A stretch of 11,267 nucleotides of DNA. Origin: Patescibacteria group bacterium (GTDB lineage Bacteria; Patescibacteriota; Minisyncoccia; Sungbacterales; GWA2-42-14). Position numbers and translations under genes: made by a program. The stretch spans positions 1 to 11,267 of the forward strand of contig JAGXAD010000007.1 of NCBI GenBank assembly GCA_018971745.1, written 5' to 3'. The notes beneath the pieces are model-generated. The model was given only the letters and a program-made list of their open reading frames with translations. It did not search any database and was not told the origin of the DNA. How positions within the stretch are numbered: the stretch's first letter is position 1; each line of letters starts with the position of its first letter. Below are positions 1-11,267 of this stretch, piece after piece.

Positions 1-457
1 CGGGTTGGTCGCCGTAAAGCAACTTTTCAAACACATAGCCGATGTAGCGGCGCGGATCGTCCAAAATCATGTTTAATTCCTGCAAAATCGCTCCGCGTTC
101 TTTTTCAACTTCGCTTTGTTTAAGCAGAGAATTAAAAAAAATGTCGGAAATCAAATCAAGCGCTTGTTCAAATTTTTGCGCCGGCACTTTCAAATAATAT
201 CCGGTGTGCTCGCGCGAAGTGAATGCGTTTGAATAGCCGCCCATTGCGTCAATTTCTTCCGCAATCATCTGCGTGTCCGGGCGGCGCTTCGTTCCCTTGA
301 AAAACATGTGCTCCAGAAAATGCGAAATGCCGTTTATTTCTTTTGTTTCATTGTTGGAGCCGGTATTTACCATAACCAAAATCGTGGCGGTGGTAACGCC
401 CTGCATCGGAATCGTAATCACGCGAAGGTTATTCGATAAAATAGTTTTTTTAAACAT
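1..457 (-). CDS. M16 family zinc metallopeptidase (insulinase/MPP-like), N-terminal part, runs off the left edge
   Basis: Translating the minus strand from the ATG at 457 gives 152 residues with no stop before the window edge, so the gene is cut off; family members usually have 400 or more residues. The protein has the inverted zinc motif HFLEH at residues 46-50 and a glutamate at 127 in LQELNM, exactly the HxxEH-x76-E spacing of M16 peptidases. H46 and H50 would bind zinc with E127, and E49 would be the catalytic base. Other family hallmarks are NTGSNNE (31-37), the GYSNAFTSREHT stretch (74-85) and EKERGAILQE. No signal peptide is visible, so it is probably cytoplasmic, as in the pitrilysin/YmxG-like processing peptidases. 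It starts 23 nt after the GNAT gene and may be cotranscribed with it or use a -10-like TATAGT just upstream. The substrate is not inferable. Codon use matches its neighbours. Confidence 0.93.
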   Translation of the reverse strand, partial: MFKKTILSNNLRVITIPMQGVTTATILVMVNTGSNNETKEINGISHFLEHMFFKGTKRRPDTQMIAEEIDAMGGYSNAFTSREHTGYYLKVPAQKFEQALDLISDIFFNSLLKQSEVEKERGAILQELNMILDDPRRYIGYVFEKLLYGDQP

Positions 458-468
458 AGTACCGAGAA

Positions 469-474
469 ACTATA
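469..474 (-). promoter_or_regulatory. Possible -10 element of the M16 peptidase gene
   Basis: The minus strand reads TATAGT here (5 of 6 matches to TATAAT), 11 nt before the ATG at 457. I see no convincing -35, and the site lies in A/T-rich DNA where such hexamers are common. If real, the leader would be only about 4-5 nt. Read-through from the GNAT gene is an equally good explanation. Confidence 0.25.
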
Positions 475-476
475 TA

Positions 477-497
477 AAATTTAGAATCTGGATTTTT
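477..497. repeat. Short 7-bp-period repeat at the GNAT gene end
   Basis: Three consecutive 7-mers (AAATTTA, GAATCTG, GATTTTT) straddle the GNAT stop codon at 481-483. The first two resemble units of the longer array at 4713-4754 (AAATTTA, GAACACG). It is short and degenerate, so it would not stand out without the other arrays. It supplies the last codons of the GNAT gene (SRF-stop). Confidence 0.35.
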
Positions 498-972
498 TTA
501 AAAAATATTCTTCCACAACCGCGGTTTCGCCGTCCGGATAAAAATTTTTTATCTCGCTGGTGATTTTGAAACCCGTCTTTTTCAATAAAGCGATAATCGG
601 CTTGTTGCTTTTCCGGCATGTCGCGTTCATTGACTCAAACTTTCCAAGACGCGCATACGCGATTGCCCATGTAATGAGCAATGTACCAAGCCCTTTTCTG
701 CGAAACCGGGGAATAATTCCGACCGATGTTAAATGCAATGCTTCGCGTTTTTTCTCATGCGTATCAGTCGCGTAATCGTACAATCCTGTATGCGGCTGAA
801 CGCTCCGATACCCAACCGGCTTTTTATTCACAAACACGATATAGTTCTGGTATTTTTCCCAACTTTCTTTATAAATCTGGTCTTGATATTCCGGAAAACT
901 CAATGTATCAAGTTGTTCCAGAATTTTCAAATCCCTCGGTAATTTTGCTTTTTTAATTTCAAGTTCCGTCAT
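481..972 (-). CDS. GNAT family N-acetyltransferase
   Basis: This is a predicted acetyl-CoA-dependent N-acyltransferase of the GCN5-related fold, 163 residues from the ATG at 972. Motif A is clear: LTSVGIIPRFRRKGLGTLLI, with the pyrophosphate-binding RRKGLGT at residues 91-97. After it come the second helix and KPIIALLKKTGFKI, the usual motif B (family GF in K-x-GF). The substrate cannot be read from the sequence; it resembles RimI-type acetyltransferases only in a general way. A GTG at 1002 in the same frame would add ten residues and overlap the upstream gene by 16 nt. The ATG is preferred because MTELEIKKAKLPRDL looks like a normal GNAT first strand. No Shine-Dalgarno is visible before either start. 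It lies 14 nt downstream of the unknown 142-aa gene and is probably cotranscribed with it. The C-terminus is formed by a 7-bp repeat. Confidence 0.88.
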   Translation of the reverse strand: MTELEIKKAKLPRDLKILEQLDTLSFPEYQDQIYKESWEKYQNYIVFVNKKPVGYRSVQPHTGLYDYATDTHEKKREALHLTSVGIIPRFRRKGLGTLLITWAIAYARLGKFESMNATCRKSNKPIIALLKKTGFKITSEIKNFYPDGETAVVEEYFLKKSRF

Positions 973-986
973 ATAATTTTTCGGCG

Positions 987-1415
987 TTAATCGTTTTTCC
1001 ACCAGCCGGAGAAAAAATTTTTTGGTTTTCTAGGCAAATCCTCCAATTCTTCCCGCGCTTTTCTTTGCAGTTCTTTCGCGGTTTCGCGATTCGTCAACAA
1101 ACTCTCAAGAACTTTTTCAGCGGTTTCTTTTTTAAGAATGGCAAGAAAATGGCTGAACCCGTCGGCATAGCGCAATCGTTCCTTGCCCGCGGCGGAACGC
1201 GCCATGCGAAACAACGCTTCCCCATACGGTTGCGCGTGCGTCTCAAGCTGTTTTTGAATTTTCTGATACGAAAAATCCGCGGTCAAAGGTAATCCGTTCG
1301 GGTCTTCAGTCCAATCCTCCCGCGCCTTCTCTATACCAACGAGCGCCTCATCGGCAATCTCTTTCATGTTTTCTTCAGGAGTTTTTTCTTGTTTTGACAA
1401 AGATTCTAAACTCAT
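987..1415 (-). CDS. Hypothetical charged, helix-rich protein, 142 aa
   Basis: I do not recognise this protein. It is coding: the ORF is closed by TAA at 987-989, uses the same codons as its neighbours and sits in a tight same-strand series. The product is rich in Lys, Glu, Arg and Ala, reads as mostly alpha-helical, and has no signal peptide, membrane span or cysteine cluster. A middle portion (FSYQKIQKQLETH, then GEALFRMARSAAGKERLRYADGF) and a long charged helix near residues 90-125 precede a Trp-containing tail (FFSGWWKND). The start is placed at the ATG at 1415, 10 nt after the glyQS stop. A longer frame opening at 1445 would overlap glyQS. Only a weak CGGA precedes the ATG. Translation is probably coupled to glyQS. 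No function is proposed. Confidence 0.7.
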   Translation of the reverse strand: MSLESLSKQEKTPEENMKEIADEALVGIEKAREDWTEDPNGLPLTADFSYQKIQKQLETHAQPYGEALFRMARSAAGKERLRYADGFSHFLAILKKETAEKVLESLLTNRETAKELQRKAREELEDLPRKPKNFFSGWWKND

Positions 1416-1425
1416 AGGACATCCG

Positions 1426-2742
1426 TTATTGTAATTTTTCTTCAAAATATGTTTGCAAATCTGCGATTGCGACCCTTTCTTGCTTCATCGTATCGCGGTC
1501 GCGAACCGTTACCGTTTCGTCTTCCAGCGTTTGATAATCAACGGTCACGCACCAGGGCGTTCCGATTTCGTCCTGCGAAAAATACCGTTTGCCGATGTTG
1601 CCGCGCTCGTCCCACGCGACCATAAACCGCTTACGCAAATCATCATAAATTTTTCCGGCGGCATCAGCCAATTGCGGCTTATTTGCAACAAGCGGAAACA
1701 CCGCGGCAGTATACGGCGCCAGGCGCGGATGCAGTTTTAACACGGCGCGCCCGGCTTCTTCCGCGTACGACTCAAGCAGTAAAAACAAAAGCGGACGATC
1801 AACTCCAGATGATGTCTCAATGTCCCAGGGCAGATATTTTTCTCCGGTGTCGGGGTCGGTATAGTGCAAATCAACTTTTGCATATTCCTGATGCCGGCGC
1901 AGGTCCCAATCGCCCCGATGGTGAATGCCCATCATCTCGTCCCACCCCCAAGGCGCTAAAAATTCAATGTCGCATGCGACGCTGGCGTAGTGCGCGCGCT
2001 CGTCCGACGCGTGATCGCGAAAGCGCAAATGCTCTTTGTGAAACCCGATGCTCAAAAACCAATCCATCCGGTTTTGTTTCCAGTATTGAAACCATTTTTC
2101 TCCTTCTTTTTCGTCGGGCTTAATGTAGAACTGCACTTCCATTTGCTCAAATTCGCGGCTGCGGAAAATAAAATTGCCCGGAGTAATTTCATTGCGAAAC
2201 GCCTTGCCGATTTGCGCCACGCCAAAGGGAACGCGCACGCGCGTTGAATCAATGATGTTTTTGAAATTGACCTGCGCGCCGTTCGTAATTTCTCCGCGCA
2301 AATATATTTCCGATTCTTTGCCTTCAATAACTCCCAAGTACGCGCGCACCAGAAGATTAAACTTCTGCGGCTCGGTCCAAAAAACTTTTTCTTTGTGCGT
2401 TTTTTCGTGAGCTCGCGTATCTTCGGGCTTATCCGCGCGAAACCGCGCATGGCACAATTTGCACTCAACCAAAGGGTCGGTAAACGCGGCAACATGACCG
2501 GACGCTTCCCACGCTTTCGGATTCATCATAATCGCGGCGTCAATCCCTACGATGTCGCGGCGCACCTGCACCATGTCGCGCCACCACCAATCCTTAAAAT
2601 TCTTTTTTAAGAGCGCGCCTAAGGGCCCGTAATCCCAAGTGCCGGCAAGCCCGCCGTAAATTTCGGATCCGGGAAATATAAATCCGCGCCGTTTCGCAAG
2701 CGCCACAATTTTTTCCATCTTATTTTGAGATTCTTGAGACAT
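1426..2742 (-). CDS. glyQS: Glycine--tRNA ligase, single-chain (alpha2, eukaryote/archaeal-like) type
   Basis: This is a class II aminoacyl-tRNA synthetase that charges tRNA-Gly with glycine in the cytoplasm, 438 residues. The N-terminus has KRRGFIFPGSEIYGG and WDYGPLGALLKKN (motif 1 region). Motif 2 is FRNEITPGNFIFRSREFEQ (183-201), followed by MEVQFY. The active-site end is SSGVDRPLLFLLLE near 311-323, and an anticodon-binding domain starts around HPRLAPYTAAVFPL (338-350) and continues through GTPWCVTVDYQTLED. The insertion after motif 1 carries CKLC (94-97) but not the usual second CxxC; instead H112 and H116 follow, giving C-x2-C-x14-H-x3-H. It is a compact version of the family. It lies 44 nt downstream of the DUF11-like gene, with a -10-like TAAATT exactly 7 nt before the ATG, so it may have its own leaderless transcript. 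Confidence 0.95.
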   Translation of the reverse strand: MSQESQNKMEKIVALAKRRGFIFPGSEIYGGLAGTWDYGPLGALLKKNFKDWWWRDMVQVRRDIVGIDAAIMMNPKAWEASGHVAAFTDPLVECKLCHARFRADKPEDTRAHEKTHKEKVFWTEPQKFNLLVRAYLGVIEGKESEIYLRGEITNGAQVNFKNIIDSTRVRVPFGVAQIGKAFRNEITPGNFIFRSREFEQMEVQFYIKPDEKEGEKWFQYWKQNRMDWFLSIGFHKEHLRFRDHASDERAHYASVACDIEFLAPWGWDEMMGIHHRGDWDLRRHQEYAKVDLHYTDPDTGEKYLPWDIETSSGVDRPLLFLLLESYAEEAGRAVLKLHPRLAPYTAAVFPLVANKPQLADAAGKIYDDLRKRFMVAWDERGNIGKRYFSQDEIGTPWCVTVDYQTLEDETVTVRDRDTMKQERVAIADLQTYFEEKLQ

Positions 2743-2749
2743 ATCGAAA

Positions 2750-2755
2750 AATTTA
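2750..2755 (-). promoter_or_regulatory. Candidate -10 element of glyQS (leaderless start)
   Basis: The minus strand reads TAAATT (fits TAnnnT, 4 of 6 to TATAAT), with exactly 7 nt to the glyQS ATG at 2742. The same spacing is seen before recO, ileS and the DUF11-like gene, which is the main reason for calling it. The -35 region is weak; the best candidate is ATCACA at an 18-nt spacer. Confidence 0.4.
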
Positions 2756-2786
2756 CAATTTTATTCAGTCTAATGTGATACCTAAA

Positions 2787-4706
2787 TCACGGCGCCACCT
2801 TCCATTCCGTATTTTTTGACTGCGGGTCGTCTTTCAATTCCGTGGTCAGATCGGGCGCGGTGTCGGACAATGACTGCGAAGTAAAACTGTCTGTGCCGTT
2901 AATCTGGGTTTGCCGCATCAAAACCGGCGCCTGCCCGGCGGTTTCCGGACCCGGATTCAGCACCACCTGAAACATAACTCCTGCGCGCGATCGCGCAATG
3001 CCCGTGTTTGCGGCAAGGGTTCCCAACGACCATGTTACCGTATTTGAAGAAGGATTATATGACACCTTGTCTTGATTGTCCCCCTGAACTACTCCTGCCC
3101 ACTGCACATTTGCCGGCAGAACTCCGCTTACCGAAACATCGTTCACATCATTTGTTCCGGTCTGCACCTGCCAATGAATCGTGTAACTGGTTGTCTTGCC
3201 AACCTGCGGAGACAGGGGCCCGGAATTTGGAATTACGGAATTGTAATAAAACGCGCGGGAAAACAGTTTGAGCACGGATGAAATTTTTATTGAAAGCAAA
3301 TCCTCGTAATGCAAAGAGGTGCCTTCAAGGTCGCGCGGCAGGACCCGCACGTCAATCGCGGCCCGCGCGTCTATGATAAAATTTTTCTTGGAAAAATCAA
3401 TGCCCGCGATGTTTTTCTTCACCTGCGCCGAAAAATCAACGGTTCCTTCCTGACCCGGCGCCAATTCCGTAAGGTCGCCCGAGGTTCCGGCGTCCCATAC
3501 AATCATATGATTTTGCGCGTCATAGGCCCCGTCTTTTACGCGAAGCGTCGCAAGGTCAAACAAATTTTCCGGAAATGTCTCCGTCAAAAACACGCCGCGA
3601 ATTGAACGGGACAAATTATTTTTATACGACAGGCGGATGGAAACCGTATCCCCGGGTAGCACGGTGCCGTCCCGGGAACCATTCATGTCCTGGCGCACCA
3701 GCAAAAAAGGCGAAGCAATTTTTACTTCTTTAACTCCTTGCGCGTACGGAACAAACTCGCGCGTATCGGAATTGTAATTTCCGATTTCCATTTTGAAAGC
3801 GCCGGTTTCTTCAGGCAGGCCGGAAACGGTTCCGGATATTTTAATTTTGATTGATTGCCCGGGTTGAACGTCTCCCAATTGCCAAATGTTGTTTTCGAAA
3901 AATGGCGCCGGATCCGCTCCGAGAAACGAAAACTGCGAAGGAAATGAAATTCTTAAAAATGAATTGGCAAACGCCGAGGACCCGTTTGAGCTGATTTCAA
4001 CGATACTGTCCAAGCGCTGATTATTGGAAACCACGTCCGGCGCGTCAATGGAAACGAGCAAGGGAACTTTCTGAATGATTGATTCAAAATCAGCCAGCTT
4101 GACCAGACGCGTTGAAATGTTCTCCGGCCGATACACGAAAGTCGCCTCAGCTTTTTTGCTTTCGCCTTCTTTGCCGAATATCAAAGCGCGAAAATCAAAT
4201 TCGCGCTCCTCGCCCGGATTAAGAATCGGCAGCGAAACGCGGGAGCGCAACGAACGTTTAACTGCGGCATCGTCGGAAACCGGTATGGAATCCGCGGGGT
4301 ACGAAAAAGAAATTTCCGCATCCTGAAACGAAACCGCGGAATTGTTGCGCACGACAACTTTCCAAAGCTCGCTCTCCCCCGCGTCAACACTGCCAGAACT
4401 CGCAATGTCTAAATTCACGTCGGAAGACGCAAAAAAAAGCGTATAGTAAATAACCCCAGCTGATACGGCAATGATTGAAGAAGTTGCGATAAAAAACCAG
4501 AACAAAAATTTTCTCCGGTTTATATTTGGAAATCGTCGTCTCATCGGAGTTTTGTTTGTTTGCGCTTCTTGTTCCGCTTCCCAAAACCGTTTTACCGGTT
4601 TTTCCCGTTCCGCGCGAATTTCTTTCATCACATCCGCATCCGGAGCAACCCGAGCCCGTTCCGTACCGGTATCAATTTTTCGTTTAAGGTCTTCTAAGGT
4701 ACTCAT
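2787..4706 (-). CDS. Large membrane-anchored surface protein with repeated DUF11-like beta domains
   Basis: The protein has 639 residues from the ATG at 4706; a TTG two codons earlier is also open but less likely. The first 55 residues are charged and should be cytoplasmic. A basic stretch (RRRFPNINRRK) precedes one membrane segment at about residues 67-92. The remaining roughly 545 residues would be outside the cell. They form several beta-sandwich-like units starting near 95, 210, 330 and 500, with DUF11/CARDB-type phrases such as GDTVSIRLSYKNN, FLTETFPENL, MIVWDAG, LAPGQEGTVDFSAQV and YTIHWQVQTG. Large DUF11-type proteins are common on cell surfaces and in CPR genomes; a role in envelope structure or adhesion is inference. 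No cysteines or sorting motif are evident in the outer part. It ends with TGA, 44 nt before glyQS. Its upstream region and the recO end share a 7-bp repeat array. Confidence 0.85.
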   Translation of the reverse strand: MSTLEDLKRKIDTGTERARVAPDADVMKEIRAEREKPVKRFWEAEQEAQTNKTPMRRRFPNINRRKFLFWFFIATSSIIAVSAGVIYYTLFFASSDVNLDIASSGSVDAGESELWKVVVRNNSAVSFQDAEISFSYPADSIPVSDDAAVKRSLRSRVSLPILNPGEEREFDFRALIFGKEGESKKAEATFVYRPENISTRLVKLADFESIIQKVPLLVSIDAPDVVSNNQRLDSIVEISSNGSSAFANSFLRISFPSQFSFLGADPAPFFENNIWQLGDVQPGQSIKIKISGTVSGLPEETGAFKMEIGNYNSDTREFVPYAQGVKEVKIASPFLLVRQDMNGSRDGTVLPGDTVSIRLSYKNNLSRSIRGVFLTETFPENLFDLATLRVKDGAYDAQNHMIVWDAGTSGDLTELAPGQEGTVDFSAQVKKNIAGIDFSKKNFIIDARAAIDVRVLPRDLEGTSLHYEDLLSIKISSVLKLFSRAFYYNSVIPNSGPLSPQVGKTTSYTIHWQVQTGTNDVNDVSVSGVLPANVQWAGVVQGDNQDKVSYNPSSNTVTWSLGTLAANTGIARSRAGVMFQVVLNPGPETAGQAPVLMRQTQINGTDSFTSQSLSDTAPDLTTELKDDPQSKNTEWKVAP

Positions 4707-4712
4707 GCGCAA

Positions 4713-4754
4713 GAATTTAGAATATAAAATTTAGAACACGGAATTTAAAATCGG
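4713..4754. repeat. 7-bp tandem array between and within recO and the DUF11-like gene
   Basis: Six consecutive 7-mers are in register: GAATTTA, GAATATA, AAATTTA, GAACACG, GAATTTA, AAATCGG. The array fills the short gap between the two genes, provides the recO stop codon and last codons (ending ILNSVF), and on the minus strand contains the TAAATT that could act as -10 for the DUF11-like gene. Confidence 0.6.
4714..4719 (-). promoter_or_regulatory. Candidate -10 element of the DUF11-like gene, inside the 7-bp array
   Basis: TAAATT on the minus strand lies exactly 7 nt before the ATG at 4706, the same hexamer and spacing as upstream of glyQS. It is itself part of a repeat unit (GAATTTA on the plus strand), so the match may be a by-product of the array. 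Confidence 0.35.
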
Positions 4755-5411
4755 ATATTCCTCTGCCGCACCAGCTCCCTTGCCATAATTTCGTTTGCTT
4801 CCCTGATAAAGATAGGTCTGAAAAATCTTTTTTACCGCAATGGCGCCCTGAACCGGATTTTTTCCCAAAGCAACGGCCGCATGCAACGGTTGCGCGCGAA
4901 AAGAAAATATCTCTTCAAGAAACGGAAACTCATCATTGGTTTCCGCGCGATGCTCGGGAAACAACCCAAGCAAATTTAAAAAATTTGCGTCAAACCAAAC
5001 CAACACTTTTTTCTGCGCGGCGGCGCTCACTTCCGGCTCGCGCTCCAAAAACAAAAATGTATTTTCAAACAATGCAAAAAATTTATTTGCGTCCCGCCGG
5101 TCTTCCAGCAAATATTCGCCTGCCAACGCCAAACAATGATACGCGGTTTCCAATTTCATCATATTTGACCGAATGCCCGGATAATATTCCCGCACTTCCG
5201 CGTGAATCAGGCGATACATATTTCTTCCCTCAACAAACGAAATGAGCGATTTGCTCATGAGCTCGCAGTGCCCGCGAAGTTTTGCTCCCTGTTTGCGCAC
5301 GCCCTTGGCAAACACTTTGATTTTTCCGAATTGCTCGCTTAACGCCGTAAGCATCAAATCCGCTTCGCCGTATTCTTCTTTTTTTACGATAAACGCTTCG
5401 GTGGTGTGCAT
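4731..5411 (-). CDS. recO: DNA repair/recombination mediator RecO
   Basis: RecO works with RecR (and RecF) to load RecA onto SSB-coated single-stranded DNA in recombinational repair. The protein has 226 residues from the ATG at 5411. The N-terminal OB-fold is typical: TTEAFIVKKEEYGEADLML, then LSEQFGKIKVFAKGVRKQGAKLRGHCEL. The helical C-terminal domain follows (YHCLALAGEYLLEDRRD, LVWFDANFLNLLGLFPE). The segment after LLGLFPE, where many RecO proteins have a four-cysteine zinc site, has no cysteines, a known variation. A start at 5420 would add three residues but overlaps the predicted -10 element, and RecO proteins normally begin close to the TEA motif. The last few residues (ILNSVF) are encoded by the 7-bp array. 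It is the first gene after a terminator and likely heads the left-hand transcription unit. Confidence 0.9.
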   Translation of the reverse strand: MHTTEAFIVKKEEYGEADLMLTALSEQFGKIKVFAKGVRKQGAKLRGHCELMSKSLISFVEGRNMYRLIHAEVREYYPGIRSNMMKLETAYHCLALAGEYLLEDRRDANKFFALFENTFLFLEREPEVSAAAQKKVLVWFDANFLNLLGLFPEHRAETNDEFPFLEEIFSFRAQPLHAAVALGKNPVQGAIAVKKIFQTYLYQGSKRNYGKGAGAAEEYPILNSVF

Positions 5412-5418
5412 TACATTC

Positions 5419-5427
5419 ATTATCGCA
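5419..5427 (-). promoter_or_regulatory. Extended -10 promoter of recO (leaderless)
   Basis: The minus strand reads TGCGATAAT, an extended -10 (TGn plus GATAAT, 5 of 6 to TATAAT), with 7 nt (gaatgta) to the ATG at 5411. It sits directly after the terminator at 5441-5463. Transcription would begin at or next to the A of the ATG, and no Shine-Dalgarno is present. No good -35 is visible, which fits an extended -10. Confidence 0.55.
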
Positions 5428-5440
5428 TGTTTTGAACAAA

Positions 5441-5463
5441 GAAAAAAGCCGCATAAAGCGGCT
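5441..5463 (-). terminator. Rho-independent terminator after the exported-protein gene
   Basis: On the minus strand a perfect 6-bp stem (AGCCGC / GCGGCT) with a 5-nt loop is followed by six Ts. The 5' arm of the stem overlaps the stop codon at 5462-5464. It separates the ileS unit from recO. Confidence 0.88.
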
Positions 5464-5911
5464 AATGGAGTGCTGGCGTATCTCCCGCAAACTCCGTAAC
5501 ATAGAGAAAAAATTCCAAATCTTTTGTAACCGTATTTATATGAGCCGCAAGATTAAACTCTTTTACCTCGCGCCAGCATGATCCGGCATACAGGTGACGA
5601 AAGAAAAAACGGTCTTCCGAAAATTCCCCGTTAACAATCTCAACCGCTTCCGCGCGCAAATAGCCGGGGTAGACGGCGCGATAATATAACGCAATTGCGC
5701 CGTCCCGAAAACGATATTCCCTGACAATTAAAGCGTCCATGGCAATGTCGCGGATTTGAAGAGGGATTTTTTTCTCCCAGGCAACGGTCCAGCCGTTTGG
5801 AAAATCATAAAACCCTTCAGGATTTTTACATTTGGTTTCTCCCGCAAACGCAGAACCCGCGCCGACCACAAAAACCAAAATCGCAATCGCCCAAAACAAT
5901 TTTTGTTTCAT
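5462..5911 (-). CDS. Small exported protein with Sec signal peptide, unknown function
   Basis: The protein has 149 residues from the ATG at 5911, which follows a weak GGGGG ribosome site; an in-frame TTG at 5920 is less likely. The N-terminus is a typical Sec signal: MKQK, a hydrophobic stretch (LFWAIAILVFVVGAG), and a probable cut after SAFA near residue 23. There is no lipobox cysteine at the cut site. The mature part of about 126 residues has two cysteines (C28 and C112) that could form a disulfide outside the membrane, and it alternates aromatic and charged residues in a way that suggests beta structure (ALIVREYRFRDGAIALYYR). I recognise no family. It lies 54 nt downstream of ileS and just before a strong terminator, so it is probably the last gene of the ileS transcript. 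No functional link to IleRS is evident. Confidence 0.75.
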   Translation of the reverse strand: MKQKLFWAIAILVFVVGAGSAFAGETKCKNPEGFYDFPNGWTVAWEKKIPLQIRDIAMDALIVREYRFRDGAIALYYRAVYPGYLRAEAVEIVNGEFSEDRFFFRHLYAGSCWREVKEFNLAAHINTVTKDLEFFLYVTEFAGDTPALH

Positions 5912-5965
5912 CGCCCCCAACGCTTCATACCGCTAAAAAGGAACTAATTTCAGAGTAATCAATCT

Positions 5966-8900
5966 CTATATTTTGTCAAGCCCAATCCATAGCTCCGCGC
6001 CGTCAAGACGCACTTCGCGCTCAATGCCGAATTGTTTTTTGCCGCCGATGGTAAATTGCTTTGCGCCGGATTCAAACATAATTTCTTTTTTCCATTTTTC
6101 CAGAATTGCTTCAATGGTTTTATTACCGGCAAACTGTATTTTAATTTTATGCTTCGGCTGCAAACCAAAATCGCGCCGCATCTCCTGAATGTTCCGCAAG
6201 ATTTCGCGAATCAAACCTTCTTCGCGCAGTGCTTCCGAAATGTGCGTATCCAATTCAACATCAGCAGAGATTTTGTCGTCAAAAACAACTTCCTTTACAT
6301 TAACTTCGTCTTTTATTAAATCCAAGAGGCCGCGTTCAACTTTCGACTTTACGCTTTTAACTTTTAACTTCGCCAGAGGTTGGCGCACTTTTATTCCCGC
6401 ATCCGCCCGCAACTTCAACGCTTGCGCAACAATCTCGCGAACCATTTTCATGTTTTCCAAAACTTTTAAGTTTCCGCTTTTAATTTTTGGCTTCGCAATC
6501 GGCCATTCTTCCAAATGCACGCTTGTAACTTTTAATCCGAGTTTCTTTTTTAATTCCTGATGCAGTACCTCGGCAAAAAACGGGGCAAACGGCGCAATCA
6601 GTTTTGCAAGCGTTACTAAAACATGCGCCGTGGTTTGACCGGCTTCTTTTTTTTCTTGCGCCGTTTCCGGCTTCTGAAACCTGCGGCGCGAGCGGCGCAA
6701 ATACCACTGCGAAAAATCACCAATCACAAATTCTTCAATCAAGCGCGCCGCATCCATAATTTCATACTCGTCAAGATTTTTCGTAACCCCAGCGACAACT
6801 TCCTCCAATCGCGCAATGACCCAAACGTCAAGAATATTTTTGGAATCCGGAATTTGGAATTTTGAAATTGGAAATTTATCAACATAAGTGTTGAATAATT
6901 GATGCGAATTCCAAAGCGTCCCGAAAAATCCCCGCGAGCGCAAAAGCAAATCTTTTTCATCAAATAATTTCGGATCGCCCGGATGATTGATGGTGTAAAA
7001 ATACCAGCGAATCACATCGGCTCCGTATTTTTGAATCATGGCCCACGGGTCAACCACGTTGCCTTTTGACTTGGACATTTTCTGCCCGTTTTTGTCCAGC
7101 ACGTGCCCGAGCGATATGACATTTTTGTACGGCGCGCCTTTTTGTAGAAGCGTTCCCACGGCAAGCATGGTATAGAACCATCCGCGCGTCTGGTCAATCG
7201 CTTCGGAAATAAAATCAGCAGGATACAATAATGTTCCAAAATTTTGATTTTTGATTTTTGATTTTTGACTTTGAGCCCAAGCGAACGGATAATGAGCTTG
7301 GGCGAACGGCATCGCCCCTGAATCAAACCATACGTCAATCACTTCAGGCGCGCGGCGCATTTTTGCGCGACATTTCGGGCATACCAAAAAAAACTCGTCA
7401 ACATACGGCCGGTGCAAATTTACCTCTCCGCGAAAATCATACGGCAGGGTGCGATACGCAAGTTTCATAATTTCCGCGGGCTTTACAAAATCCTTACCGC
7501 GCTTTTCTTTCCACAAAACGCTTTCTTCATTGCTCATGCCGGATGCCGCACCGGCCAAGGCCCAAATCGGATATTCGTGGCTAACAAGAAGTATTTTTTT
7601 ATTCTTGTATTTTTTTTCCGCCTCGCCGAAAAATTCCATCATACGCCGCTTCACATCGTTCAGCGATTCTCCTTCCGGCGGGCGTTTGGTAAATTTTTCA
7701 ATCATTGAATGATAATAGCGATGATATTCAATTACGGGTTTTCCTTCAAACGCGCCAATGTTGATTTCGCGAATACGCTCATCAATGACAATTTTTTTTA
7801 CGCCAAGCGTATCCGCAACGATTCGCGCGGTCTCCTGGGTCCGTTTCACGTCGGACGCGACAATCACATCTATATTTTCTTTGAGAAGTTTTTTTGCGGA
7901 TGCGGCAACTTGTTTTCTGCCGCGATCGGTCAGATGAAACCTATTCTTGCTGTTATCGGCAATGCCGAGCAATTGCGCCTCGCTCTCGCCATGGCGCATC
8001 AGAAAATATTCATTGCCCGATTTTTGCGCAAGCGCATCCAGTTCATCCAAACTCCCAATCAACTCTTGATGACGGCATTGTTCACACTCCCATACCGGAA
8101 GCGGCGTACCCCAATATCGCTCGCGCGAAAATGCCCAATCGCGCACCTCTTTTAAAAACTCCCCAAAACGGCCGTCACGCAGATGTTCAGGAACCCAGTG
8201 AATTGTTTCGTTATTTTTTAACAACTCATTGCGCAAAGAACTCATCCGAATCCACCACGAGTCCTTGGCAAAATACAAAAGCGGCGTATTGCACCTCCAG
8301 CAATGCGGATAGTCGTGCTCATGCATAAGCGCGAGATACAACAACTTCCGTTTTTTCAAATCATCAATAATAACCGCATCGGCGTCTTTGACAAATTTTC
8401 CTTGCGCAATAATTCCTTTTTTCATCGTGCCGTCCAAATTCACCGTACGCAATATCGGATAACGATCGCCATATTCTTTTTTCACAGCCTGCATATCATC
8501 ATCCCCGAATGCCGGAGCCAGATGCACAAAGCCGGTTCCTTCTTCGATCTCCACAAAATCTGCCGCAACAGTTACATACGGCATTTCCGATTCCGGATAT
8601 GGGGGTTTGTATTTTAAACCAACCAACGACTTGCCGGAAACTTTTTCAACGAGTTCAATAATTTCGAAATCTTTATGCGGCGGAGTTGTAGCCGACCAGA
8701 CATAATATTGGCTTTCTTGAGAATCAAGAAATGTCCTCCGGCGGCGAACCTTTTCTTGGGCAGTAAATTGTGTTGTGATTTTCCATTTTGTATACTCAAT
8801 TTTTGGATTCACGGCAACCGCGACATTCGCGGGCAGTGTCCACGGTGTTGTCGTCCAAACAAGCAGATACTCCGGCGCCTTGCCGTTGCCAGACCCGACT

Positions 8901-9562
8901 GGCTGCAAAAGCTTCATCATCACAAAAACCGAATTCTCTTTTATTTTCTGATACGCTCCAGGCTGGCCAAGTTCGTGCGACGACAAACCGGTTTGGCACC
9001 TCGGGCACCACGGCACGACTTTAAAATCTTTATACAGCAATTTTTTCTTCCAAATTTCTTTAATAATCCACCACAGAGTTTCCATATAATTCGGGTCATA
9101 GGTAATATACGGGTGCTCCATATCAAGCCAAAAGCCAATGCGCTTGGTAAGTTTTTCCCATTCACTTTTGTATTTCCACACGGACGCGCGGCATTGTTCG
9201 TTAAACCGCTCAATGCCGTACGTTTCTATGTCTTTTTTGTTTTTCAAACCCAACTCTTTTTCAACCGCAAGTTCCACCGGAAGTCCGTGCGTATCCCAAC
9301 CGGCTTTGCGCGCCACAAAAAATCCCCGCATGGTTTTGTACCGCGGAATCAAATCTTTGAACGCGCGCGCTTCCACATGATGGATGCCGGGAAGCGCGTT
9401 TGCCGTTGGCGGTCCTTCGTAAAACACAAATGATTTTTTACCCTTGGTTTTTGCCAAAGATTTCTCAAAAATTTTCTCGCGCTCCCACATTTCCAGAATT
9501 TTTTCCTCCCGCAGAGGCAAATTCAATTGTTTTTCGTCTAATTGTTTCTCGTCATCGGACAT
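5966..9562 (-). CDS. ileS: Isoleucine--tRNA ligase with an inserted histidine-phosphatase domain
   Basis: A class I synthetase that charges tRNA-Ile, 1198 residues against about 1000-1050 for relatives; the extra length is mostly an inserted domain. Numbering is from the ATG at 9562. The signature motif is GIHH (59-62) and KMSKS is at 828-832. The CP1 editing domain has WTTTPWTLPAN (236-246) and GTGFVHLAPAFGDDD (342-356). One zinc site is C186/C189 with C421/C424. A second (C493/C496 with C728/C731) is split by the phosphatase domain at about 518-709. Four 7-bp repeats add Lys-rich linkers near 764-775, 896-907, 1023-1034 and 1065-1076. From the lysine linkers on, the C-terminal tRNA-binding part is otherwise normal. 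An ATG at 9571 would add three residues, but the best promoter overlaps it. It stands alone after a terminator and probably reads through into the exported-protein gene. Confidence 0.96.
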   Translation of the reverse strand: MSDDEKQLDEKQLNLPLREEKILEMWEREKIFEKSLAKTKGKKSFVFYEGPPTANALPGIHHVEARAFKDLIPRYKTMRGFFVARKAGWDTHGLPVELAVEKELGLKNKKDIETYGIERFNEQCRASVWKYKSEWEKLTKRIGFWLDMEHPYITYDPNYMETLWWIIKEIWKKKLLYKDFKVVPWCPRCQTGLSSHELGQPGAYQKIKENSVFVMMKLLQPVGSGNGKAPEYLLVWTTTPWTLPANVAVAVNPKIEYTKWKITTQFTAQEKVRRRRTFLDSQESQYYVWSATTPPHKDFEIIELVEKVSGKSLVGLKYKPPYPESEMPYVTVAADFVEIEEGTGFVHLAPAFGDDDMQAVKKEYGDRYPILRTVNLDGTMKKGIIAQGKFVKDADAVIIDDLKKRKLLYLALMHEHDYPHCWRCNTPLLYFAKDSWWIRMSSLRNELLKNNETIHWVPEHLRDGRFGEFLKEVRDWAFSRERYWGTPLPVWECEQCRHQELIGSLDELDALAQKSGNEYFLMRHGESEAQLLGIADNSKNRFHLTDRGRKQVAASAKKLLKENIDVIVASDVKRTQETARIVADTLGVKKIVIDERIREINIGAFEGKPVIEYHRYYHSMIEKFTKRPPEGESLNDVKRRMMEFFGEAEKKYKNKKILLVSHEYPIWALAGAASGMSNEESVLWKEKRGKDFVKPAEIMKLAYRTLPYDFRGEVNLHRPYVDEFFLVCPKCRAKMRRAPEVIDVWFDSGAMPFAQAHYPFAWAQSQKSKIKNQNFGTLLYPADFISEAIDQTRGWFYTMLAVGTLLQKGAPYKNVISLGHVLDKNGQKMSKSKGNVVDPWAMIQKYGADVIRWYFYTINHPGDPKLFDEKDLLLRSRGFFGTLWNSHQLFNTYVDKFPISKFQIPDSKNILDVWVIARLEEVVAGVTKNLDEYEIMDAARLIEEFVIGDFSQWYLRRSRRRFQKPETAQEKKEAGQTTAHVLVTLAKLIAPFAPFFAEVLHQELKKKLGLKVTSVHLEEWPIAKPKIKSGNLKVLENMKMVREIVAQALKLRADAGIKVRQPLAKLKVKSVKSKVERGLLDLIKDEVNVKEVVFDDKISADVELDTHISEALREEGLIREILRNIQEMRRDFGLQPKHKIKIQFAGNKTIEAILEKWKKEIMFESGAKQFTIGGKKQFGIEREVRLDGAELWIGLDKI
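6335..6369. repeat. 7-bp-period repeat translated within ileS
   Basis: Five units end in ACT or GCT in register (TTCAACT, TTCGACT, TTACGCT, TTTAACT, TTTAACT on the plus strand). They encode the Lys/Val/Ser stretch KLKVKSVKSKVE between VRQPL and LLDLIKDE. Homologues have a short variable loop at this place. Confidence 0.6.
6461..6495. repeat. Degenerate 7-bp-period repeat translated within ileS
   Basis: Five 7-mers are in register: AACTTTT, AAGTTTC, CGCTTTT, AATTTTT, GGCTTCG. They encode AKPKIKSGNLKV, just after the EEWP motif. The units have diverged more than those at 7239-7273. Confidence 0.5.
6842..6876. repeat. 7-bp-period repeat translated within ileS
   Basis: Five 7-mers are in register: GGAATCC, GGAATTT, GGAATTT, TGAAATT, GGAAATT. 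They encode PISKFQIPDSK between the catalytic core and the anticodon-binding helical bundle, a position where homologues have a variable loop. Confidence 0.6.
7239..7273. repeat. 7-bp tandem array translated within ileS
   Basis: On the plus strand AATTTTG is followed by three perfect ATTTTTG units and a diverged ACTTTGA. On the minus strand it encodes QKSKIKNQN between HYPFAW and LLYPADF. This is the cleanest of the four arrays in ileS, and the region should form a surface loop. Confidence 0.75.
7436..8011 (-). other. Histidine-phosphatase (PGAM superfamily) domain inside ileS
   Basis: This marks the inserted domain, residues 518-709 of the IleRS. It contains the phosphohistidine motif LMRHGESE (R523, H524), the second arginine in SDVKRTQETA (R574), the acid in REINIGAFEG (E599) and the second histidine in LLVSHE (H662). 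It also has the PPEGESLNDVKRRM segment typical of the family. All four catalytic positions are intact, so phosphatase or mutase chemistry is expected. The domain is framed by IleRS sequence on both sides (GSLDEL before, LHRPYVDE after) with no frameshift. Confidence 0.93.
8713..8731. repeat. Perfect inverted repeat within the ileS editing domain
   Basis: TTTCTTGA and TCAAGAAA form a perfect 8-bp inverted repeat with a 3-nt loop (GAA), inside coding sequence for FLDSQESQ (residues 278-285). It lies in a roughly 20-residue stretch with an unusual RRRR run that is absent from the T. thermophilus enzyme as I recall it. Confidence 0.5.
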
Positions 9563-9569
9563 ATACACC

Positions 9570-9598
9570 ATGATAATGAATTTTTGCCGTTAAATCAA
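9570..9598 (-). promoter_or_regulatory. Candidate promoter of ileS (leaderless)
   Basis: TTGATT (4 of 6 to TTGACA) at 9593-9598 and TATCAT (5 of 6 to TATAAT) at 9570-9575 are separated by 17 nt. The -10 ends 7 nt before the ATG at 9562 and overlaps the alternative ATG at 9571. It follows the terminator at 9601-9625 immediately. No Shine-Dalgarno is seen. Confidence 0.5.
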
Positions 9599-9600
9599 AC

Positions 9601-9625
9601 AAAAAAGGGACAAAATTTGTGTCCC
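9601..9625 (-). terminator. Rho-independent terminator after the DUF2384-like gene
   Basis: On the minus strand GGGACA pairs with TGTCCC (6 bp, 7-nt loop with further A-T pairing possible), followed by six Ts. The hairpin starts one base after the stop codon of the 64-aa gene (9627-9629) and ends the argS unit. Confidence 0.87.
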
Positions 9626-9626
9626 C

Positions 9627-9821
9627 CTATGCCATATCGCCGCTTTGAGCGCTTTTAATAAATAACAGCACCCTCTGTTTCTCTCCGTCCGCCCAAAGTT
9701 CTTTCGGGCTTTTTCCTCTCAACAAATCATGCGGCTGATTCCAAAAAATCTGCAAATTATCTTCGCTCAACGCGTTACCAACCACCTTCCGAATCTCACC
9801 CGGAATAATATCTTTTGCCAT
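9627..9821 (-). CDS. MbcA/ParS/Xre-type toxin-binding domain (DUF2384-like) small protein, 64 aa
   Basis: The C-terminal 40 residues resemble the toxin-binding domain of Xre/MbcA/ParS antitoxins. An N-terminal helix (IRKVVGNALSEDNLQIFW) is followed by a loop (NQPHDLLRGKSPKELW) and a final GE-x-VL-x-FI helix that ends SGDMA, close to the usual pattern of a P, then L-x-G-x-(S/T)P-x-(D/E)L, then GE and VL. The usual N-terminal DNA-binding helix-turn-helix is absent; the protein is just this domain. In typical systems the partner is a RES-domain toxin, and none is present here. It starts 11 nt after argS with the sequence TAAGGAGGGGAAGTATG, a strong Shine-Dalgarno, and ends at a terminator, so it is cotranscribed with argS. 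It may be a free-standing regulator or binding protein rather than an antitoxin. Confidence 0.8.
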   Translation of the reverse strand: MAKDIIPGEIRKVVGNALSEDNLQIFWNQPHDLLRGKSPKELWADGEKQRVLLFIKSAQSGDMA

Positions 9822-9825
9822 ACTT

Positions 9826-9834
9826 CCCCTCCTT
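9826..9834 (-). promoter_or_regulatory. Strong Shine-Dalgarno of the 64-aa gene
   Basis: The minus strand reads AAGGAGGGG with 4 nt to the ATG at 9821, overlapping the argS stop codon. It is the only canonical ribosome-binding site I see in this window, and it fixes the start of the small gene. Confidence 0.85.
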
Positions 9835-11267
9835 ACATTTTTTTCGGCGCTGAAATTCCCAAAAGACCCAATAATGAATGTAGCACAATCCTCGTTGCTT
9901 TGACAAGCTCCAAACGCGCCTCGGTTATTGCCGGATCTTGCGTAATAATCCGATGTTTTTCGTAAAAATTATGAAACGATCCGGCAAGCTCAATCGCATA
10001 GCGCGTTAAACGATGCACTTGATAATCACGCGCCGTATCTTCAATCACTTCCGGAAACTGAATCAGTTTTTTTATCAACGCGATTTCTTCAGTTGTGTTT
10101 AATATTTTTATGACTTTTGAATTTTGATTTGCAATTTTGACTTTTGACTTTTGACTTTTGACTTTTTGTATAATACTCCGGCATCTTACAAATGCGTATT
10201 GAACATAGTAAACCGGATTTTTCAGCGAGCGCTCTTTCGCAAGCGCCATGTCAAAATCCATGTGCGCATCCGGAGAATGCGCTAAAAAGAAAAACCGCGC
10301 CGCGTCCAAACCGACTTCGCGAATCAAATCGAAAAACAAAATCGCGGTTCCGGCGCGCTTGGACATTTTTACCTCAACGCCGTCTTTCACGAGCCGCACG
10401 AGCTGTGTGATAATAACCTGCAATTTTTCTTCGGCAATGCCAAGCGCTTTTAGCCCGGCTTTCAAGCGCAACACATATCCGTGGTGATCCGCGCCCCAAA
10501 TGTCAATCACGCTGCTGAATTTTCTTATCGCAAATTTATCCCAATGATACGCCAAATCAGGCAATATATAGGTAGGGTCATTGTCCGAGCGCACCAAAAC
10601 CCTGTCTTCACTATCTCCAAATTTGCTTGCCCGAAACCATAAGGCACCATCTTTTTCGTACAGTAAATCGTTTTTTGACAATTGCTTGCGCGTTTTTTCA
10701 ACCAACCCTTTTTTATACAGTTCCTCCTCCTCAAACCATCGGTCAAATTTTATGTTCAAAACTTTTTCCGTGAATTTTTTGTTTTCTTTTTGGATTTCCT
10801 GCGCCAATAAATGCCCGACTTCTCCTTCAAGATTTTTTGAATTCTTTTTTTTGAACGCATTAATTTTCTTTTTAGCCTGCATGATAACCCGTTTTAATTC
10901 CGGCGTTAAATATGTCGTGCCTTTCCCCAATCCGGTTTTACCGAGTTCCTTGATTTGCGTGCTTGCTTTTGCGTTATTCACATAGTATTCGCGCGTTACC
11001 AAAAATCCCACGGTCGTCAGCACATTTGCAAGCGCATCTCCCAAAAACGCCCCTCTGCCGTTGCCGATGGTAAGCGCTCCGGTCGGATTTGCCGAAATAA
11101 ATTCTACTTGAATTTTTCCTTTTTTCTTTGCTCCGCTTCCGTATTTTTCTTTTTGTTTGACAATTTCAAAAAACTCTTTTTGTAACGCACTCTCGGTCAA
11201 AGAAAAATTGATAAATCCGGGCGAAGCAATCCGAATTTTGAATTTTGAATTTTGAATTTTGAATTCG
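9833..11267 (-). CDS. argS: Arginine--tRNA ligase, N-terminus cut by the window edge
   Basis: A class I synthetase that charges tRNA-Arg. The frame stays open to the right edge: beyond the TTG at 11200, which can look like a start, it encodes RIASPGFINFS, the end of the family's Add-1 domain. The TTG is therefore an internal leucine and roughly 90-100 N-terminal residues are missing. The active site has EFISANPTG, but the HIGH box reads TIGN (11060-11071) where homologues have HVGH. KMSKR is intact (10355-10369), as are WGADHHGYVLRLKAGL and the DALR-type anticodon-binding domain ending ISAPKKM. A 7-bp array (10112-10168) adds a Lys/Ser/Gln/Asn linker between the catalytic core and the anticodon domain, and another array lies at the window edge. 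The stop codon overlaps the ribosome site of the 64-aa gene, so the two are cotranscribed. Confidence 0.96.
   Translation of the reverse strand, partial: EFKIQNSKFKIRIASPGFINFSLTESALQKEFFEIVKQKEKYGSGAKKKGKIQVEFISANPTGALTIGNGRGAFLGDALANVLTTVGFLVTREYYVNNAKASTQIKELGKTGLGKGTTYLTPELKRVIMQAKKKINAFKKKNSKNLEGEVGHLLAQEIQKENKKFTEKVLNIKFDRWFEEEELYKKGLVEKTRKQLSKNDLLYEKDGALWFRASKFGDSEDRVLVRSDNDPTYILPDLAYHWDKFAIRKFSSVIDIWGADHHGYVLRLKAGLKALGIAEEKLQVIITQLVRLVKDGVEVKMSKRAGTAILFFDLIREVGLDAARFFFLAHSPDAHMDFDMALAKERSLKNPVYYVQYAFVRCRSIIQKVKSQKSKVKIANQNSKVIKILNTTEEIALIKKLIQFPEVIEDTARDYQVHRLTRYAIELAGSFHNFYEKHRIITQDPAITEARLELVKATRIVLHSLLGLLGISAPKKM
10112..10168. repeat. 7-bp tandem array translated within argS
   Basis: Units of GACTTTT and GAATTTT repeat with period 7, with four near-identical GACTTTT units at the right half and one imperfect middle stretch (GATTTGCAATTTT). 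Because 7 is not a multiple of 3, three units (21 bp) encode a 7-residue period, here QKVKSQKSKVKIANQNSK. Confidence 0.8.
11233..11267. repeat. 7-bp tandem array at the right edge, in the argS frame
   Basis: Four perfect GAATTTT units and a final GAATTCG reach the window end, so the array may continue. On the minus strand the argS frame passes through it without a stop and reads EFKIQNSKFKI immediately before RIASPGFINFS. Confidence 0.75.

Follow-up and report, generated by a model that had tools for sequence, protein, structure and literature searches.

A histidine phosphatase domain within, or encoded beside, isoleucyl-tRNA synthetase in Patescibacteria

A phosphatase domain embedded in ileS

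We analyzed a stretch of 11,267 nucleotides (hereafter, the window) from a Patescibacteria group bacterium (GenBank assembly GCA_018971745.1, contig JAGXAD010000007.1, positions 1 to 11,267), which carries on its minus strand a single uninterrupted frame of ileS, the gene for isoleucyl-tRNA synthetase (IleRS). The frame encodes 1201 amino acids from the ATG at 9571, or 1198 from the ATG at 9562. Residue numbers follow the 1198-residue form, as in an earlier reading of the window made from its sequence only, unless stated otherwise. Within the tRNA-synt_1 catalytic region the protein contains a complete histidine phosphatase (HP) domain, belonging to branch 1 of that superfamily. The features of the gene are as follows:

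5966..9562 (5966-9571 with the longer start), minus strand: ileS, IleRS with embedded phosphatase (open reading frame, Pfam, NCBIfam)
9377..9388, minus strand: GIHH, residues 59-62, a non-canonical variant at the position of the class I HIGH motif
8075..8086, minus strand: first half of the second zinc site, C493-x-x-C496 (C493 column: C in 34 of 35 sequences, H in 1)
7406..8014, minus strand: whole insert, residues 517-719, comprising the phosphatase and a C-terminal linker that stops before LHRP (limits from the family profile, alignment and AlphaFold2)
7523..8005, minus strand: Pfam His_Phos_1 core, 523-683 in the 1201-residue numbering (Pfam match)
7988..7996, minus strand: R523-H524-G525, the RHG motif (R and H in 71 of 71 domains, G in 97%)
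7853..7855, minus strand: S570, family-invariant (71 of 71 domains)
7841..7843, minus strand: R574, phosphate pocket (71 of 71 domains)
7766..7768, minus strand: E599, general acid position (E in 56 and D in 4 of 60 IleRS domains; E in 90% of 71)
7667..7669, minus strand: E632 in the GES motif, family-invariant (71 of 71 domains)
7577..7579, minus strand: H662, second catalytic histidine (71 of 71 domains)
7370..7381, minus strand: second half of the zinc site, C728-x-x-C731 (C728 column: C in 35 of 35 sequences)
7067..7081, minus strand: KMSKS, residues 828-832, intact

The zinc-column counts over 35 sequences exclude the duplicates L001, L002 and L008 (G and L numbers are our labels for genomes and loci), and were made in the 1201-residue numbering, where the two columns are 496 and 731.

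The protein scored 833.4 bits with the NCBIfam ileS equivalog model (cut-off 621.4). It is a type-2-like IleRS, with 809.7 bits to 1ile and 765.5 bits to 8c8w, versus at most 314.1 bits to the type 1 enzyme of Priestia megaterium. Its class I signature consists of KMSKS together with a GxHH variant of HIGH, and G59, H61 and H62 of this variant were invariant in all eight IleRS sequences aligned. The insert is located between the two CxxC halves of the second zinc site (C493/C496 and C728/C731). At this point the Thermus thermophilus enzyme, 1ile, aligned through residue 483 and again from residue 489, and in between the window protein is longer by about 200 residues.

The insert matched Pfam His_Phos_1 (PF00300) with an E-value of 3.1e-38 and 131.8 bits (cut-off 21.7), and with 6.3e-40 in the genome search, where it was the sole match at E <= 0.001 in the window's own genome (89% complete). 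AlphaFold2, run on the insert alone with eight sequences, predicted a confident HP fold (mean predicted local distance difference test, pLDDT, 92.0; predicted template modelling score, pTM, 0.88). When this model was searched with Foldseek, the ten best matches were all HP enzymes (TM 0.73-0.78), the nearest being 4ij6 (0.78). By sequence profile, the insert was nearest to 4ij5 (93.9 bits) and to PhoE. None of the listed NCBIfam HP models reached its cut-off with the window insert: the best model for the isolated insert was dPGM_arch (111.8 bits versus 225), and the PspA model NF045917 and the CobC model TIGR03162 scored 84.2 bits versus 350 and 82.1 bits versus 162.9, respectively. Since no HP cut-off is reached, the substrate is not readable from homology.

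The sequence-only reading had described a real in-frame domain, placed between the zinc halves where T. thermophilus IleRS has only a short linker, with the full catalytic set (RHG 523-525, R574, E599 and H662) and with intact IleRS motifs on both sides. All of this was borne out, the HIGH motif being intact in the form of the GIHH variant.

Conservation of the phosphatase active site

Our tally of catalytic residues covers all 97 collected domains; loci duplicating longer ones were skipped at collection, and one domain below 50 bits was dropped. Conservation along the insert alignment was computed on 71 domains, 60 from IleRS and 11 from separate genes. The 60 domains of IleRS belong to 58 proteins, with two domains each from L084 and L085; another IleRS, L087, was counted apart. 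R523, H524, R574 and H662 were identical in all 60 IleRS-embedded domains. Just six positions were invariant in all 71 domains (R523, H524, S570, R574, E632 and H662), and the median conservation over the 203 window columns was 44%. An invariant active-site set is not what would be expected of a decaying or purely structural domain. The comparison thus supports the view, put forward in the sequence-only reading, that selection maintains the phosphatase active site.

Distribution of the insert

The base set comprised the genome of the window and 54 relatives, 55 genomes in total. Three of them (G023, G037 and G047) were not judged, since ileS was absent or incomplete. Among the 52 judged genomes, 43, including the window's, carry the HP domain inside ileS. 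Among the carriers with a taxon name are Ca. Sungbacteria, Brennerbacteria, Liptonbacteria and Harrisonbacteria. The other nine judged genomes have an insert-less ileS (G006, G020, G025, G033, G035, G038, G039, G046 and G051). The arrangement was also present in seven named GenBank contigs, found in a scan with a few exact peptide patterns. In a sample of 145 genomes from the phylum, all nine genomes of the window's class and 14 of the 136 others had a matching frame longer than 900 residues. On inspection, these 14 comprised IleRS carriers in 12 genomes and valyl-tRNA synthetase (ValRS) carriers in 3, one genome having both. Genome searches were kept within the phylum; the 14 control genomes added in family searches contribute no architectures.

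The insert-less forms were scattered on the IleRS tree, their clustering being no stronger than that of shuffled labels. On an IleRS tree of 76 rows, insert-less IleRS without a neighbouring HP gene accounted for eight changes, at least seven of them forced by well-supported branches. In three of the eight insert-less IleRS without a neighbouring HP gene (L070, L071 and L076) the C-terminal linker motif of the insert remains, probably as a deletion scar left by loss of the insert.

A separate gene beside ileS

In G039, one of the insert-less genomes, a gene of the insert family sits between argS and ileS. To see how common this form is we surveyed 237 genomes of the window's class with the insert profile. 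At E <= 1e-15, 194 genomes matched and 43 had no match. The best 150 rows, from 148 genomes, were classified; the other 46 matching genomes had weaker matches and are unclassified. Among these best rows, the HP domain was in a frame of at least 600 residues in 136 genomes and in a frame of less than 300 residues in 12, and no genome among the 148 listed had both the embedded and the separate form. The IleRS identity of the 136 long frames was checked for those that were fetched.

In nine of the 12 separate-gene genomes, the HP gene is immediately 5' of an insert-less ileS (G039, G202, G274, G371, G284, G341, G244, G234 and G301). The first ileS start lies -7 to +14 nucleotides from the HP stop in all nine, with an overlap of 4 nucleotides in four of them, and the separate gene is apparently translationally coupled to ileS. 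The IleRS of these nine genomes have other, mostly shorter, linkers at the insert site, without the linker motif of the insert. The gene order is argS-HP-ileS-recO in eight of the nine; in G301 the contig stops before argS. In G351 (L135) the argS-HP-recO slot is kept, and no ileS was found in the 11 kb fetched. Neighbour labels were checked with Pfam in G274, G244 and G351, and assigned elsewhere by BLAST against the window proteins. In total there were 13 separate insert-like copies in the 12 genomes, two of them in G301. We used 11 as separate copies; the two unlinked ones (L131 and L132) were excluded from the conservation count and were grouped with other free HPs in the charge comparison given below.

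The same genes flank ileS in the window, in the order found where relatives encode the phosphatase separately:

9833..11266, minus strand: argS, upstream of ileS and running off the window (DALR_1 and tRNA-synt_1d)
4731..5420, minus strand: recO, downstream of ileS (RecO_N)

The argS-ileS gap of the window contained no phosphatase gene, either among its open reading frames or in the His_Phos_1 search of the genome. Downstream of recO, a protein of 641 residues (window 2787-4712, minus strand) has a DUF11 match and, on visual inspection, what looks like a membrane segment at its N-terminus; relatives of it occur downstream of recO in 8 of the 13 neighbourhoods that we fetched.

On the 76-row IleRS tree the form with an HP gene beside ileS accounted for five changes, at least four of them forced by well-supported branches. 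Since this form occurs at several places of the tree, the link appears to have persisted while ileS was rearranged or replaced several times; the same scattered pattern would also result from lateral transfer of ileS. G039 (L069) and G202, G284, G244 and G301 (L129, L134, L137 and L139) belong to one family. Within it, the ileS genes next to the phosphatase are split between two well-separated regions of the IleRS tree, which suggests that ileS was replaced and the phosphatase gene retained. The inner branches of the HP trees are weak (open in 42 of 94 and 36 of 85), leaving the direction of change between inside and beside unsettled. The second HP tree omits the domains of 20 loci (free HPs, long-branch or odd rows).

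ValRS and multi-domain variants

In scattered genomes of a few lineages, ValRS too has an HP domain. Seven proteins best matched by ValRS models have HP domains in the corresponding region. Six of them pass the cut-offs of both TIGR00422 and PRK05729; the seventh, L080, begins at a contig end and passes TIGR00422 only. The class survey added three more ValRS with an HP domain, assigned by BLAST. In G002, G008, G016 and G019 both IleRS and ValRS carry the domain. This joint occurrence speaks against a single substrate that diffuses freely.

At least two IleRS have tandem HP domains: L084 (1467 residues, 1349-5749, minus strand) and L085 (1480 residues, 1232-5671, minus strand). In the HP trees several ValRS inserts cluster with the second tandem IleRS domain and not with the common IleRS insert; HP domains were thus probably recruited more than once. 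Two further variants were seen: L087 (2138-6490, minus strand) is an IleRS of 1451 residues with a GNAT domain at 666-764 and an HP domain at 920-1068, neither at the zinc site, and L086 (2375-6208, minus strand) is a ValRS of 1278 residues with two HP domains, the first on a very long branch (2.22) of the HP tree.

Proposed function

From a domain of HP fold with an invariant catalytic set, linked to ileS and distributed either inside it or as a separate gene, we infer a predicted working phosphomonoesterase that probably belongs functionally to IleRS, whether inside the enzyme or as a neighbouring gene. Catalysis would proceed by the two-step phosphohistidine mechanism usual in the superfamily. 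H524, presumably the phospho-acceptor as expected from the HP family, would accept the phosphoryl group, with R523, R574 and H662 holding it and E599 acting as the acid. The phosphatase would most likely act in place, on a target at the synthetase or in its immediate vicinity, because it is coupled to ileS and because a second domain is found in ValRS of the same cell.

As the target we would first suspect a phosphate carried by IleRS-bound tRNA(Ile), for example a phosphorylated or damaged acceptor end that would block charging. A second candidate would be a phosphorylated residue of IleRS or a regulatory ligand on it, and a third, a by-product arising at the synthetic site, AMP or another one. 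The 11 separate copies are basic proteins, with a median core net charge of +12 and pI of 9.7, versus 0 and 6.9 in 29 other free HPs, a weak hint that would suit RNA contact. We tentatively suggest a dedicated synthetase-phosphatase system that would remove phosphate from tRNA(Ile) (in some of these bacteria also from tRNA(Val)) or from the synthetase, before, during or after charging. If true, isoleucylation in these bacteria would have an extra catalytic or quality-control step in cis, provided by an inserted domain or a coupled gene, and the repeated entry of HP domains, in part independent, into the same zinc knuckle of IleRS and ValRS would represent convergent evolution of that step.

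Several observations weigh against a functional bond between phosphatase and synthetase, or against parts of it. Among the nine insert-less genomes of the 52 judged, a separate gene adjoins ileS only in G039; the other eight have no neighbouring HP gene, indicating that the function can be lost. Two separate-gene genomes of one family, G224 and G286, have no ileS within the fetched 11 kb, and G301, a genome listed with 6% contamination, has its second copy on a different contig, next to argS, an ileS fragment following after another 1.7 kb. The second histidine is missing in one of eight ValRS domains, and since domains were gathered with a profile of intact inserts, strongly decayed ones may be missed. 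The nearest solved enzymes (phosphoserine phosphatase and PhoE) use small-molecule substrates. The full-length AlphaFold2 model (eight sequences) was poor (pLDDT 62.9, pTM 0.44), and its placement of the insert on IleRS is too unreliable to orient the phosphatase active site. Finally, the median charge is +3 in IleRS-embedded domains, like the rest of IleRS, and -1.5 in ValRS domains, and AT-rich genomes alone could account for the charge difference. Since the charge hint is not general, we give the tRNA-directed version modest weight only.

Alternative explanations

The domain could instead regulate IleRS, by dephosphorylating the synthetase or by binding a phosphorylated signal, and so alter charging. 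Tethering or coupling to ileS would fit such a role, as would the lid before the GES motif, which lacks 5 residues compared with PspA and PhoE and may leave the pocket more open. SixA and PGAM5, superfamily members that dephosphorylate proteins, offer precedents. The conserved catalytic residues, however, suit an enzyme better than a sensor, and we consider regulation rather unlikely.

Less probable still is the removal of an aminoacylation by-product, AMP or pyrophosphate, at the synthetic site, which would drive the reaction forward. The domain is linked to a synthetase gene; soluble pyrophosphatase (PF00719) had no match in 47 of the 55 genomes, one of the eight matches being weak; and CobC, an HP enzyme that acts on a nucleotide-like phosphate, is the best HP model for the ValRS insert in five of seven proteins, below its cut-off. 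However, 39 of the 55 genomes, including the window's (G000:C186:5617-7548), have a membrane H+-pyrophosphatase. The nine genomes without either pyrophosphatase follow no rule: five have the insert, one (G039) the separate gene, and three an insert-less ileS. Moreover, all synthetases yield these by-products, yet the domain was seen only in IleRS and, rarely, in ValRS, and a separate AMP phosphatase would deplete the adenylate pool.

The by-product role was one of three proposals of the sequence-only reading; the other two, a tRNA-end repair step and regulation of charging, stay candidate roles. As a stand-in for a missing pyrophosphatase, the by-product role is not supported, given the H+-pyrophosphatase of the window's own genome and the lack of a rule across genomes; in its general form it keeps the low standing just given. 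The interpretation offered by that reading is, overall, partly supported; the broader picture (the gene form beside ileS, the distribution either inside or separate, the tandem domains and the ValRS counterpart) was beyond its view. It had also named three findings that would speak against it (no significant His_Phos match, freely varying catalytic residues, and a chimeric assembly), and on all three the results came out in its favour.

A purely metabolic enzyme (for example, phosphoglycerate mutase or phosphoserine phosphatase) for which IleRS would be no more than the housing is quite improbable. The top NCBIfam profile, below its cut-off, is dPGM_arch, and the nearest structures are phosphoserine phosphatases; yet no NCBIfam HP model reaches its cut-off, IleRS and ValRS each carry the domain in four genomes, and the separate copies adjoin ileS in 9 of 12 genomes. 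As for a glycolytic mutase in particular, an independent iPGM (iPGM_N) is present in 46 of the 55 genomes, including the window's, which makes that role, not one that the sequence-only reading had proposed, unlikely.

We give even less credence to a neutral passenger in a permissive loop, retained by chance or for structural reasons. The site does tolerate tandem HP domains (L084 and L085), L087 has GNAT and HP domains elsewhere, and the scattered insert-less forms, three with a linker scar, indicate that loss is tolerated. However, the catalytic centre is invariant across deep divergence, and a coupled gene recurs beside ileS when the domain is not inside.

An assembly chimera or frame artefact has practically no chance of being the explanation, and recent acquisition is ruled out with it, since the arrangement recurs in 43 of the 52 judged genomes and in the seven GenBank contigs, and since the base composition of the insert (0.461) matches that of its flanks (0.459 and 0.440); the fusion is thus real, as first described.

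Extra domains on aminoacyl-tRNA synthetases are known as such. Here, however, a phosphatase whose active site is invariant is built into the synthetase in most of the sampled genomes of the class and is often encoded next to ileS where it is not inside, which points to a step of dephosphorylation connected with protein synthesis in a vast group of small-genome bacteria that have not been cultured. The natural inside and beside forms make the partnership between phosphatase and IleRS directly testable with purified proteins, and the scattered genomes without the domain are natural negative controls.

Comparison with known systems

We found no description of the IleRS-HP combination in a partial open-access library, a search that did not cover subscription papers and preprints; the architecture may already be recorded in domain databases that are compiled automatically. 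The synthetase part is homologous, on both sides of the insert and including KMSKS and the anticodon domain, to the type 2 (eukaryote-like) IleRS 1ile and to P. megaterium IleRS2 (8c8u-8c8w). These type 2 enzymes lack the phosphatase, 1ile having only a 5-residue gap at the insert site. The replacement of HIGH by GxHH is common to the window protein and, as we interpret its PDB title, to 8c8w; this entry, among the solved IleRS2 nearest to the window, is a HIGH-motif variant titled mupirocin hyper-resistant.

The insert shares its fold, sequence profile and catalytic residues with HP branch 1 enzymes (PspA, 4ij5/4ij6; PhoE, 1h2e; CobC, 6nru). Unlike these, it is embedded in a synthetase, and its lid is shorter than that of PspA and PhoE. 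Two NCBIfam models describe comparable fusions. NF005567, a bifunctional RNase H / acid phosphatase, joins an HP domain to a nucleic-acid enzyme, with a different partner (96.3 bits with the isolated insert, cut-off 326). NF040702, ileS_w_GNAT, is also an IleRS with an extra enzymatic domain, but that domain is an acetyltransferase (294.3 with the window protein, cut-off 1999). The existence of the latter model makes extra enzymatic domains on IleRS a recognised kind of arrangement. IleRS and HP are each known families, and the interesting part of their combination is the biochemical step that it would provide.

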